Shown here: positions 611-11,739 of the stretch, in pieces
How positions within the stretch are numbered: the stretch's first letter is position 1
Layout of the letters: every line of letters starts with the position of its first letter
Notes under the pieces: generated by a model
What the model saw: the letters and a program-made list of their open reading frames with translations, nothing else
Told to the model about the DNA's origin: nothing
Database searches by the model: none
Program-made: the position numbers and the translations under genes
Assembly (NCBI GenBank): GCA_021781655.1
Contig: JAJXWJ010000033.1
Location: 1-35,234, forward strand
DNA from: Bacillota bacterium
GTDB taxonomy: Bacteria; Bacillota; Clostridia; Clostridiales; Clostridiaceae
Reading direction: 5' to 3'
Length of the DNA: 35,234 nucleotides

Positions 611-937
611 ATGGGAAAAATTTTTGGTCGTAAAAAAACAGAAATGAATAGATCTAAAGAGTTAGTACATTCTTTATATAATAGTATTTCACAAACGCAT
701 AAAAACAATTTTGAAGATATTAAAGAAGTATTATTAAAAGTTTATGCAAAGCTAGATGAACAAGATAAAAAAAATATTGGGTTGTTAAGTAGATTGGTAA
801 ATTATATATGGTTTACTGCGTATACCGAGAAACTACATCTTTCATCTGAAGAAGAAAATATTGTAATAGAGTTATCTGCAATATGTAAACATGCAGGTAT
901 GAATATTCTAGGTTGTTATGATAAATCCCAGTTTTAA
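611..937 (+). CDS. Enterocin A immunity-family protein (class IIa bacteriocin immunity homologue)
   Basis: This is a 108-residue cytosolic protein with no signal peptide or membrane segment. The start at 611 is chosen because AAGGAG (596-601) lies 9 bases upstream; an upstream ATG at 584 lies in the -10 box. The sequence matches what I recall of the enterocin A immunity protein: KELVHSLYNSIS near the N-terminus, EVLLKVYAKLDEQ, then SRLVNYIWFTAYTEKLHL, and the identical C-terminus DKSQF. Proteins of this family are four-helix bundles. They protect producer cells by binding the mannose-PTS/bacteriocin complex at the inner membrane face. No bacteriocin precursor (YGNGV motif, double-glycine leader), transporter or induction gene lies nearby, so this looks like an orphan immunity gene. 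The family call is confident; actual protective activity is inference. Confidence 0.78.
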   Translation: MGKIFGRKKTEMNRSKELVHSLYNSISQTHKNNFEDIKEVLLKVYAKLDEQDKKNIGLLSRLVNYIWFTAYTEKLHLSSEEENIVIELSAICKHAGMNILGCYDKSQF

Positions 938-8096: not shown

Positions 8097-9836
8097 ATGG
8101 TAAAAAGATTAGCTATTTATATTGGAGAATTTAAGCGTGATTCTATTTTGACGCCGACTTTTGTTGCATTAGAAGCGGCTATGGAAACTATTATTCCGCT
8201 TTTAATGTCTATGATTATAGACAATGGGGTAGGGAAAGGAAATGTAGGTTATGTATGCATTATGGGAGCTTTAATGCTTTGTGTAGCATTTTTATCTCTT
8301 ACCTTTGGAACATTAAATGGAATATTTGCAGCAAGTGCATCTACAGGTTTTGCTAGAAATTTGAGGAGGGGAATTTATTATAACATTCAAAAATATTCCT
8401 TTAGTAATATAGATAAATATTCAACAGCAGGATTAGTTACTAGATTAACTACAGATATTACAAATGTTCAAAATGCTTATCAAATGATTATAAGAATACT
8501 TGTTAGGGCACCACTTATGCTAATATTTTCTATGTGTATGTGCTTTTATATAAATTCAAAGTTATCACTTATATTTTTAGGAGCAATAATATTTCTTGGA
8601 GTTGTATTATATTTTATTATGACTGGAGTTCACCCATACTTTGTAAGAGTATTTAAAAAATATGATGAATTAAATGCAAGTGTACAAGAAAATCTAACTG
8701 CAATTCGTACAGTAAAGGCGTATGTTAGGGAAGATCATGAGACAGATAAATTTTATAAGGCTTCTTATAAGCTATATCAATACTTTTTAAAGGCTGAAAA
8801 GATTATAGTTGTCAATGGGCCTGTAATGCAATTTACTGTTTATACATGTATTTTACTTTTATCTTGGCTTGGTGCAAAAATGATAGTATCAAATTCCCTT
8901 ACTACTGGCGAACTTATGAGCTTATTTACTTATACAGTAAATATTCTAATGAGTCTTATGATAATGTCTATGGTTTTTGTTATGGTAATTATGGCAAAGT
9001 CATCAGCGGAGAGAATAATTGAGGTATTAGATGAAAAGAGCGACCTTGTAAATAGCGAAAACCCTGTTTATGATGTTCAAAATGGAGCTATAAATTTTAA
9101 AAATGTAAACTTTAGCTATAGTAAGGATGAAGCTTCTTTAGTTTTAGAAAATATCAATATAAGTATAAAATCAGGAGAAACTATAGGTATTATTGGAGGA
9201 ACGGGAAGTGCAAAATCATCTCTAGTCCAGCTTATTCCAAGACTTTATGATACAACGACTGGAACAGTGGAGGTTGGAGGTATCGATGTTAAAAAATATG
9301 ATATTGAAACCTTAAGAAATGAGGTTTCTATGGTACTTCAAAAGAATGTATTGTTCTCAGGAACAATAAAAGAAAATTTAAGATGGGGAAATAAGGATGC
9401 ATCCGATGAAGAATTGATGGAAGCTGCTAAAAGAGCACAAGCAGATGAATTTATACAAGCTCTTCCAAATAAATATGATACATTTATAGAACAAGGTGGT
9501 ACAAATGTTTCTGGTGGTCAAAAGCAAAGATTATGTATTGCAAGAGCCCTTTTAAAAAAGCCAAAAATATTGATTTTAGATGATTCTACTAGTGCAGTAG
9601 ATACAAAAACAGATGCACTTATAAGACAAGCATTTAGAGAAGATATACCAAATACTACAAAAATAATTATTGCTCAACGTATTTCTTCTGTGCAAGATGC
9701 TGATAGAATTATTGTATTAAATGATGGAAAAATAGATGGTTTTGGAACTCATGAAGAACTTTTGGAGACTAATGCTATATATAAGGATGTTTACCAGTCT
9801 CAAATGAAGGGAGATGATGATAATGAGTCAAAATAA
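8097..9836 (+). CDS. Heterodimeric ABC exporter half-transporter, BmrC/YheI-like (degenerate-site subunit)
   Basis: This 579-residue protein has an N-terminal six-helix exporter domain (about 10-305) and an ABC ATPase domain (about 330-575). Walker A is GGTGSAKSS (367-375), with Ala instead of the last glycine. The signature VSGGQ (471-475) is canonical. Walker B ILILDD (491-496) has Asp in place of the catalytic Glu, and the switch residue is Gln (AQR, about 527) instead of His. These substitutions are known from the degenerate half of BmrCD/LmrCD/TM287-288-type exporters. The gene overlaps the next subunit by 14 bp. The pair probably exports drugs or lipids from the plasma membrane. Regulation is by the upstream MarR protein. 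Confidence 0.9.
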   Translation: MVKRLAIYIGEFKRDSILTPTFVALEAAMETIIPLLMSMIIDNGVGKGNVGYVCIMGALMLCVAFLSLTFGTLNGIFAASASTGFARNLRRGIYYNIQKYSFSNIDKYSTAGLVTRLTTDITNVQNAYQMIIRILVRAPLMLIFSMCMCFYINSKLSLIFLGAIIFLGVVLYFIMTGVHPYFVRVFKKYDELNASVQENLTAIRTVKAYVREDHETDKFYKASYKLYQYFLKAEKIIVVNGPVMQFTVYTCILLLSWLGAKMIVSNSLTTGELMSLFTYTVNILMSLMIMSMVFVMVIMAKSSAERIIEVLDEKSDLVNSENPVYDVQNGAINFKNVNFSYSKDEASLVLENINISIKSGETIGIIGGTGSAKSSLVQLIPRLYDTTTGTVEVGGIDVKKYDIETLRNEVSMVLQKNVLFSGTIKENLRWGNKDASDEELMEAAKRAQADEFIQALPNKYDTFIEQGGTNVSGGQKQRLCIARALLKKPKILILDDSTSAVDTKTDALIRQAFREDIPNTTKIIIAQRISSVQDADRIIVLNDGKIDGFGTHEELLETNAIYKDVYQSQMKGDDDNESK

Positions 9837-11739
9837 TAGGGAAATAAATAATCGCAAGGCACACTCTGGTAAAAAATTTGATAAGAATTCGCTAAAAACT
9901 TTAAAAAGGCTAATTATATTTATATTTAAAGATTATAAGTTTAGATTTTTTATTGTAATCTTAACTATAATTATAAGTTCGCTTGCAAATGTAGTAGGAA
10001 CACTATTTATTAAGCAGCTCATAGATACCTATATAACGCCACTTTTAAAAACACATAGTAATGATTTTAGCCCATTATTAAAAATGATAGCTACAATGGG
10101 AGCAATTTACGCTGTGGGAGTAATTTCTACGTATGTCTACAGTCGAGTAATGATAGGTGTATCCCATGGTTCTCTTAAAAAAATAAGAGATAATATGTTT
10201 TTTCATATGGAGTTACTGCCTATAAGTTTTTTTGATACACATGCTCATGGTGATTTAATGAGTCTATATACAAATGATACTGATACTTTAAGGCAGATGA
10301 TTAGTCAAAGTATACCTCAACTGCTTGCAGGGATAATAACTGTAGTTAGCATATTTATTTCAATGATTTACTTAAGTCCAGTATTAATATTAGTCCAATT
10401 AGCGATTTTAGCAGCTATGTTTTTAGTAACAAAATATATAGGTGGAAAGAGCAGTGAATATTTTAAAAAGCAGCAAAAATCACTTGGTGAGTTAAATGGA
10501 TATATTGAAGAAATGATGGAAGGCCAAAAGGTAGTAAAAGTATTTTGCCATGAAAAAGAAGCAGAAAAAGATTTCGATAACCTCAATGATATACTTTGTA
10601 AAAGCTCTAACAAGGCTAATAGATATGCCAATATATTGATGCCTGTAATGGGAAATATAGGCTATATAAATTACGTTTGCATAGCTATTTTAGGGTCAAT
10701 TTTGGCTATCGGTGATTTTGCAGGCTTTACGCTAGGCTCGCTTGCTTCATTCCTTCAACTAACTAGAAGCTTTAGTCAGACGATTAACCAAATGTCACAG
10801 CAATTTAATTTTATAATAATGGCACTTGCTGGAGCTGAACGTATTTTTAAAATTATTGATGAAGAAGTAGAAGTTGATACTGGTTATGTAAGCTTAGTTA
10901 ATGCTGAGGAAAGTGAAACAGGTGAAATTTTAGAAACAAAAAAACGTACTGGAGTTTGGGCTTGGAAGCATCCTCATGAAGATGGTACTGTAACATATAC
11001 AAAAGTAAATGGTGAAGTAGTTTTTGATGATGTTGATTTTGGATATAATAGCGAAAAGATGATACTTCACAATATAAAGCTTTATGCAAAGAGAGGTCAA
11101 AAAATAGCATTTGTAGGTTCAACTGGAGCAGGAAAAACTACAATTACTAATTTAATTAATAGATTTTATGATATACAAGACGGAAAGATAAGATATGATG
11201 GAATAAATATAAATAAGATTAAAAAAGATGATCTTAGAAGATCCCTTGGAATGGTGCTTCAAGACCCACATTTGTTCACAGGAACTATTGCAGATAATAT
11301 AAGATATGGAAAGCTTGATGCTACAGAGGAAGAAGTAATTGCTGCAGCAAAACTCGCTAATGCTCATAGCTTTATAAAACATTTGCCAAAGGGTTACGAT
11401 ACAGTAATCACAGGAGATGGAGGAAATTTATCTCAAGGACAAAGACAACTCTTAACTATTGCCAGGGCTGCTATAGCTGATCCACCAGTTTTAATACTTG
11501 ATGAAGCTACATCAAGTATAGATACTAGAACAGAAGCAATTGTGCAAGAAGGAATGGATAAGCTTATGAAGGGAAGAACGGTATTTGTAATAGCTCATAG
11601 ATTATCTACTGTTCAAAATTCAGATGTTATTATGGTACTTGAACAAGGGAGAATTATTGAAAGAGGAAACCATGACGAACTAATAGAACAGAGAGGAAAA
11701 TATTATCAACTTTATACAGGAGCTTTTGAGCTTTCATAG
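9823..11739 (+). CDS. Heterodimeric ABC exporter half-transporter, BmrD/YheH-like (catalytic subunit)
   Basis: The protein has 638 residues from the ATG at 9823, 9 bases after AAGGGAG; the ATGs at 9814 and 9817 are too close to it. A six-helix domain spans about 35-335. An inserted charged segment (about 350-395, containing TGVWAWKHPHEDGT) precedes the ATPase domain. Walker A GSTGAGKTT (432-440), Walker B VLILDE with catalytic Glu561, and His592 in the switch are intact, while the signature is LSQGQ (536-540) instead of LSGGQ. The changes complement those in the partner: this subunit supplies the good Walker B and the poor signature, so the dimer has one active and one degenerate ATP site. 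The insert makes it longer than its partner, as in BmrD. Confidence 0.9.
   Translation: MSQNNREINNRKAHSGKKFDKNSLKTLKRLIIFIFKDYKFRFFIVILTIIISSLANVVGTLFIKQLIDTYITPLLKTHSNDFSPLLKMIATMGAIYAVGVISTYVYSRVMIGVSHGSLKKIRDNMFFHMELLPISFFDTHAHGDLMSLYTNDTDTLRQMISQSIPQLLAGIITVVSIFISMIYLSPVLILVQLAILAAMFLVTKYIGGKSSEYFKKQQKSLGELNGYIEEMMEGQKVVKVFCHEKEAEKDFDNLNDILCKSSNKANRYANILMPVMGNIGYINYVCIAILGSILAIGDFAGFTLGSLASFLQLTRSFSQTINQMSQQFNFIIMALAGAERIFKIIDEEVEVDTGYVSLVNAEESETGEILETKKRTGVWAWKHPHEDGTVTYTKVNGEVVFDDVDFGYNSEKMILHNIKLYAKRGQKIAFVGSTGAGKTTITNLINRFYDIQDGKIRYDGININKIKKDDLRRSLGMVLQDPHLFTGTIADNIRYGKLDATEEEVIAAAKLANAHSFIKHLPKGYDTVITGDGGNLSQGQRQLLTIARAAIADPPVLILDEATSSIDTRTEAIVQEGMDKLMKGRTVFVIAHRLSTVQNSDVIMVLEQGRIIERGNHDELIEQRGKYYQLYTGAFELS

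Follow-up and report, generated by a model that had tools for sequence, protein, structure and literature searches.

Which role does a bacteriocin immunity gene play in a genome in which no bacteriocin gene of the corresponding class was found? This question was raised by an open reading frame on a contig of a member of the Clostridiaceae (JAJXWJ010000033.1, assembly GCA_021781655.1), which was analysed over its whole length of 35,234 nucleotides and is called the window in the following. An initial annotation had regarded the gene as an orphan homologue of the enterocin A immunity gene that could give resistance to the bacteriocins of competitors or be the remainder of a lost bacteriocin locus. 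Orphan immunity genes are a kind already known; in streptococci and lactic acid bacteria, resistance to foreign bacteriocins has been suggested for them (PMC2806384, citing Fimland 2002). Their origin and use have largely been a matter of suggestion so far.

The gene at 611-937 and its product

The open reading frame was found at 611-937 on the + strand and encodes 108 amino acids, in agreement with the position and length given before. Reading the sequence, we preferred the ATG at 611 to those at 584 and 644, which stand in the same frame, because a ribosome-binding site, AAGGAG (596-601, + strand), stands nine bases 5' of it. Further upstream (559-585, + strand), a candidate promoter was read, consisting of TTGAAA (559-564), a spacer of 15 nt and TATAAT (580-585) with a TG at 577-578 in the arrangement TGN before TATAAT. 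A promoter of its own, as claimed for the gene, is plausible from these motifs, but a consensus scan that required a spacer of 16-18 nt did not list the candidate and gave 5 sites in total compared to 6.2 in shuffled sequences and thus no excess.

The protein matched the EntA_Immun family (PF08951) with an E-value of 4.6e-15 and 56.1 bits, 34 bits above the cut-off of 22.1; the match covers residues 16-88 of the protein and positions 2-73 of the 73 positions of the profile. Among the PDB sequences, 2bl8 (EntA-im) and 2bl7 were matched with E-values of 8e-18 and 2.9e-17, the alignment with EntA-im extending from residue 14 through the last residue, and in NCBIfam zero families scored above their own cut-off. 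The assignment as an enterocin A immunity homologue was therefore confirmed. With EntA-im of Enterococcus faecium the window protein shares the PF08951 domain, the four-helix bundle and the DKSQF end, and a plasmid copy of EntA-im is 43.6% identical over residues 6-108 of the window protein; in contrast to EntA-im, it has a longer N-terminus and a shorter stretch ahead of DKSQF. In alignment A1, the N-terminal extension MGKIFGRKKTE (611-643, + strand) precedes the MNRSK stretch common to the relatives, and the C-terminal end (899-934, + strand) retains DKSQF and is three residues shorter than in most close relatives.

An antiparallel four-helix bundle had been predicted and was indeed obtained. 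The AlphaFold model (mean pLDDT 78, pTM 0.70, alignment of 12 rows) has four predicted helices at residues 3-27, 32-50, 55-72 and 79-94 and a poorly defined C-terminal end. Foldseek with this model ranked EntA-im first, and all four matches with E ≤ 0.001 were EntA-im. VIA-align gave a Z of 14.1 with PedB (rmsd 1.5, 86 residues aligned), 13.2 with EntA-im (rmsd 1.1, 79 residues aligned) and 10.3 with the best unrelated bundle. Since a Z of 13-14 for a helical bundle is barely above the range that unrelated bundles can reach, the case for the family is carried by the sequence matches more than by the structural Z.

Relatives of the immunity gene

PF08951 was found in 25 of the 206 Clostridiaceae genomes (38 matches), a count that does not support the view of PF08951 as foreign to bacteria other than lactic acid bacteria. 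A search with the window protein itself detected 13 close relatives in 11 of the 206 genomes, the own genome included; they come from 6 genera, and the window genome is the sole representative of its genus in the set. The members of this clade include Clostridium akagii (G147), C. acidisoli (G146), C. hydrogenum (G162) and Clostridium sp. C8-1-8 (G107), as well as the metagenome-assembled genomes G197, G200 and G064. With alignment A1, at least 2 of 391 genomes of the class had matches, the own genome and one weak match (6.7e-4), a lower bound since at most 12 candidates were scored per genome. In a scan of genome_contigs, the single protein confirmed none of 52 candidates and alignment A1 confirmed 7 of 292. 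Matching plasmid records numbered 166; each stayed below 60% identity and belonged to a lactic acid bacterial genus. Next to one relative each on plasmids of L. salivarius and E. faecalis no bacteriocin was annotated in the incomplete gene table. As for carriage by phages, 0 of 119 candidates from viral_contigs were confirmed as relatives. Two unannotated records named "Listeria phage" (OR849312.1 and OR846865.1) hold an EntA-im-like gene whose identity equals that of the plasmid copies from E. faecium; these records may be plasmid-derived contigs. A literature search, mostly of journals without subscription, gave no such orphan clade in Clostridium in the titles and opening lines of the matches listed.

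In a tree of 43 rows, built without the short and broken row G066:C54:193, the window gene and nine other clostridial genes grouped at 99/96, and the close clade grouped with EntA-im, G200 and G064 at 89/99, below the starred level. By this grouping and its DKSQF end, the window protein is assigned to the EntA-im group, which is group A of the class IIa immunity proteins (PMC2806384). The window branch is the longest in the close clade after those of G163b and the truncated G066 copy. The frame is full-length in 12 of the 13 clade genes, and 11 have a related C-terminal end, the exceptions being the short copy of G066 and G163b with its changed end; in the alignments, the close relatives retain the DYGDKSQF end of EntA-im.

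Pairwise dN/dS values (NG86) were below 1 in all 36 clade pairs compared (0.06-0.85) and amounted to 0.24-0.54 in the eight pairs with the window gene; the comparison excluded G200, G064a and G064b for their differing lengths and G066 for its missing C-terminus, and NG86 is crude in AT-rich genomes. These values speak for constraint on the clade gene, perhaps relaxed in the window.

Search for a bacteriocin in the genome

The plasmid copy of EntA-im lies one base 3' of a class II bacteriocin gene and is followed by the gene for an induction factor. Unlike there, no bacteriocin gene was found with the window gene: a scan of up to 2.5 kb on each side, less at the contig end, revealed no class IIa peptide gene within reach. 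A complete class IIa system is present in Clostridium: the clesteriocin A locus of Candidatus Clostridium mucoides comprises precursor, exporter and immunity genes (PMC12947273), of which the window has the immunity gene only. Profile searches of the own genome (G000) gave a single PF08951 match and zero matches to PF01721, the profile for class IIa precursors, which matched 0 of 14 control genomes and 4 of the 206 genomes of the family. YGNGV was encoded at four sites on two contigs, C106 and C120, and none of them is a precursor; all lie inside two long proteins of repeated modules (L058, L062, L064), whose YGNGV stretches mimic the pediocin box and are a trap for pattern searches. The same pattern also picked up the intact precursor of G004. 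Matches in further genomes were rejected as precursors, since the translated L055-L057, L059-L061 and L063 turned out to be short frames or another long protein.

As for an exporter, the ABC transporters at 8097-11739 have no C39 domain, nor was one found anywhere else in the window. The search of the own genome gave no whole C39 exporter, only one fragment of a C39 peptidase (55-68 codons, 42-43% identity by tblastn) on another contig. In the positive controls, G004 and one of the two G023 loci, precursor, immunity gene and C39 exporter are located together. Judged by precursor and C39 exporter, the window does not hold a class IIa bacteriocin locus, which supports the initial annotation, where both genes were described as absent. 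The C39 fragment (G000:C108:46234-46428, L075) lacks the remainder of an exporter and is flanked by polysaccharide-deacetylase-like and DedA-like genes, named by eye; it is possibly the remnant of a lost class II exporter of this genome.

Could the genome nevertheless encode a bacteriocin of its own that was missed, either a class II peptide outside PF01721 or one in an assembly gap? The window is a whole contig in which the gene lies 610 bases from the end, and the assembly consists of 168 contigs and is 97.7% complete. The genome-wide search for precursors comprised PF01721 and the exact YGNGV pattern, and the latter misses YANGV as in clesteriocin A (PMC12947273) and YPNGL as in G023. Furthermore, a PF08951 gene of another subfamily in G025 lies less than 8 kb from C39 exporters and near a double-glycine peptide, yet without PF01721, so other partners are possible, and a whole C39 exporter occurs elsewhere in the genome of 3 of the 8 clade relatives searched (G107, G160 and G163). 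However, PF01721 does detect the YPNGL variant in G023 and found nothing in the own genome, which has the C39 fragment only. No C39 domain was seen in the stretches of up to ~10 kb beside the clade genes, and an intact class IIa peptide was found beside 0 of the 13 clade genes within 2.5 kb or to the contig end. In view of these results, a missed bacteriocin is rather improbable.

Decayed bacteriocin genes and a shared promoter in relatives

To see what stands beside related immunity genes, both flanks of all 38 PF08951 matches were scanned for class IIa peptides over 2.5 kb, or less where the contig ended earlier, with stops read as X. An intact class IIa peptide was found beside three of them, two in G023 and one in G004, and a class IIa peptide with in-frame stops beside two, one in G066 and one in G107. 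One more match in G023 is accompanied by an apparent C-terminal peptide scrap (E 0.27), and for the remaining 32 no class IIa peptide was counted, which leaves room for partners outside the class IIa profile. The broken gene of G066 (C42; L044, 1770-1952) and the weak scrap of G023 (C1; L110, 9305-9355) are located directly upstream of PF08951 genes of another subfamily.

The decayed gene of G107 stands beside a member of the window's clade. It matches PF01721 with 25.5 bits (cut-off 24.5), contains three in-frame stops and ends 40 bp upstream of an intact immunity gene; the outline of a leader is still discernible in another frame, and a promoter (TTGACA/TATAAT) and a ribosome site (GGGAGG) are present. 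In G107 the bacteriocin has thus been lost and the immunity gene kept. The stretch of 67 bases from G107 with this promoter and ribosome site was then compared with the upstream regions of the clade genes and of 273 control genes from the fetched loci. G146, G160, G162 and G163a scored 40, 37, 28 and 27, higher than the best control (24; 0 of 273 as high). G197 and G147 scored 24 and 21, and 5 and 17 of the 273 controls were as high; no signal was seen for G064a, the window, G200 and G163b, with 30, 162, 192 and 192 of the 273 controls as high, respectively. With G197 as query, no clade member scored above the controls. Since the upstream stretch of G146, G160, G162 and G163a resembles the promoter and ribosome site of the decayed gene, the immunity gene appears to occupy the former place of the bacteriocin gene, and the shared promoter thereby supports a loss of the bacteriocin in these four relatives as well.

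The window itself retains no remnant of a bacteriocin. The region upstream of its immunity gene scored 33 against that of C. akagii (G147; best control 30, 0 of 275 as high), the N-terminal extension forming part of the stretch compared, and G147 scored 42 against G146 (best control 29); compared directly with G146, the window was matched by 215 of 275 controls. The window's own copy would therefore be linked to the decayed gene of G107 at one remove, via G147 and then G146, and by this path it, too, may have lost a bacteriocin. When the comparison with G107 was extended from the ribosome site into the leader, 1 of 286 controls scored as high as G147 and 149 of 286 as high as the window; that the N-terminal extension might be a leader remnant is speculation.

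Taken for the clade, the immunity gene has probably been retained after loss of the bacteriocin. Like the orphans of streptococci and lactic acid bacteria, these are immunity genes without a cognate bacteriocin; unlike them, the clostridial clade still shows a decayed bacteriocin gene and its promoter in relatives. One clade thus holds the steps side by side: a wrecked bacteriocin gene with an intact immunity gene, immunity genes behind a similar promoter and with no bacteriocin gene, and free-standing copies elsewhere.

Genomic site of the gene

The immunity gene adjoins a gene for a LysR regulator (1033-1911, − strand), which is followed by a gene for a DUF4865 protein (2043-2579, + strand), both identified by Pfam. 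This pair is kept in all 15 loci of relatives compared, the best 15 of a longer list, and in none of these 15 were the immunity gene or the methyltransferase gene (3-524 of the window) found within ~1.5 kb of the pair. The absence of the immunity gene from the conserved pair in 15 of 15 relatives makes its import more likely than its persistence at this place, and its arrival at the present spot would be the simplest explanation. Within the contig, which begins at base 1, no mobile element was seen beside the gene. In ten clade genes (G064a, G064b and G066 left out) compared with 3 kb on each side, homology ends near the promoter and no more than ~50 bases 3' of the gene, except for short within-gene repeats and two matches below 30 bases. 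Among 12 clade loci with up to ~10 kb on each side, shared frames (at least 150 codons, at least 50% identity) were confined to two neighbours common to G160 and G163a. A recent horizontal transfer, to be recognised by low dS, was considered and rejected: dS within the clade (0.13-0.81, 36 pairs) overlaps with that of the Man-PTS IIC genes (0.26-0.89, 21 pairs from seven clade genomes, the IIC genes of G146 and G147 left out).

A more general route may be sketched tentatively. In clostridia, a class of stand-alone resistance genes could have arisen by removal of the bacteriocin gene, the immunity gene taking over the ribosome site and promoter of the bacteriocin, together perhaps with the first leader codons in some species, and then moving between chromosomal sites and being kept mainly where a vulnerable Man-PTS is present. 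The odds of this are slightly lowered because G160 and G163 share two neighbour genes.

Another explanation is that the gene is a non-functional leftover, drifting towards loss after the bacteriocin locus had gone. Its orphan state, the long branch and the loss of three C-terminal residues would fit, as would the broken PF08951 copies that occur in G066. The intact frame, the ribosome site and the plausible promoter argue against it, as do the dN/dS values below 1 in 36 of 36 pairs, the preservation of length and C-terminal end in most of the clade and the absence of the gene from the conserved pair in the best 15 relatives, which makes import more likely. A drifting leftover is therefore unlikely. 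As the better explanation we regard an EntA-im-type, stand-alone resistance gene for class IIa bacteriocins, in a clade that would go back to pairs of bacteriocin and immunity gene in which decay or deletion removed the former; we consider this probable.

The putative receptor and the role of the protein

Class IIa bacteriocins use the IIC and IID proteins of the mannose phosphotransferase system (Man-PTS) as receptor, and it is the complex of this receptor with the bacteriocin to which immunity proteins bind (PMC5077127). Pediocins are described to act on bacteria whose Man-PTS has the regions alpha and gamma, Clostridium included (PMC11403280). Clostridia can be targets of class IIa bacteriocins since enterocin A inhibited 20 of 20 isolates of C. 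perfringens; the MICs of enterocin P and SEK4 were very high (PMC10855908).

Man-PTS IIC is encoded twice in the own genome. One system is of the right receptor type: its IIC and IID are identical to the chains of PDB 7XNO, the sakacin A complex (PMC11403280), in 214 of 268 and 244 of 303 residues (~80%), and its IID has a long loop of 61 residues compared to 31 in the other own system. The IIC reads SGQGKAG and thereby differs in one residue from GGQGxxG, the motif as printed (PMC11403280), which is taken here as region alpha. Nine of the 11 clade genomes were examined further: the long IID loop is present in 9 of 9 and GGQGxxG in 6 of 9, the window genome having SGQGxxG and G197 and G200 neither. 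Among the matches listed, this type of IIC occurs in all 11 genomes of the clade and in 22 of 25 genomes with PF08951 compared to 45 of 181 others (Fisher 1.2e-9; 22 of 25 compared to 41 of 181 without four genomes with a 64-65% identical IIC); in shuffles within genera, with genus borders taken from the order of the genomes in the set, the mean was 14.3 and 22 was never reached in 20,000 shuffles. Genomes with PF08951 and without this Man-PTS type, again among the matches listed, were G057, G067 and G150.

This co-occurrence fits a protection of the target; a shared habitat or gene content could add to the signal. It would also fit, among the matches listed, if the protein had turned to another task unrelated to bacteriocins, such as setting the activity of the Man-PTS, and the orphan state in many species would agree with that. 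Against such a task stand the DYGDKSQF end of EntA-im kept in close relatives and the decayed bacteriocin gene beside one of them. To our knowledge, there is no precedent for another task of such an immunity protein, Man-PTS control for instance, and we consider it very improbable.

Judging from the sequence data, the most likely role of the window protein is thus stand-alone resistance to class IIa bacteriocins, guarding the Man-PTS. According to this model, the protein would be a cytoplasmic immunity protein of the EntA-im group; a class IIa bacteriocin from outside would bind to IIC/IID of the cell's Man-PTS, and the immunity protein would bind to the bacteriocin-receptor complex from the cytoplasmic side and stop the pore. 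The clade would descend from bacteriocin-immunity pairs, and after decay or deletion of the bacteriocin gene the immunity gene would have been retained for resistance. Family, fold, receptor type, the wreck in G107 and the promoter shared by four relatives were seen by computation, and no class IIa precursor was found; protection by the window copy, the bacteriocin it would be directed against, the exact way in which the pore would be blocked and the same evolutionary route for this gene are inferred. Several observations count against this model. The C-terminus, said to recognise the bacteriocin (PMC5077127), is three residues shorter in the window protein, the window branch is long, its pairs have a dN/dS of 0.24-0.54, the upstream region is unlike that of the G107 wreck and of G146, and region alpha is off by one residue. 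Immunity proteins are reportedly highly specific, with cross-immunity in some (PMC5077127), and in one system MunC was protective without the receptor, an argument for a direct effect on bacteriocin or pore (PMC8538875). Both roles proposed in the initial annotation, resistance to competitors and remainder of a lost locus, are compatible with each other and are indirectly backed by the wreck in G107, the promoter in relatives and the receptor type in the genome. If these genes are protective, clostridia would possess a resistance, already in place and readable from the genome, to food preservatives that resemble enterocin A or pediocin.

Two further observations were made in the loci of relatives. 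The clade gene of G160 (L039, 8062-8373) lacks an ATG in the usual position; its start may be an unusual codon. In G163, four PF08951 genes of three subfamilies are located within a span of ~155 kb on one contig of 191 kb (C2).
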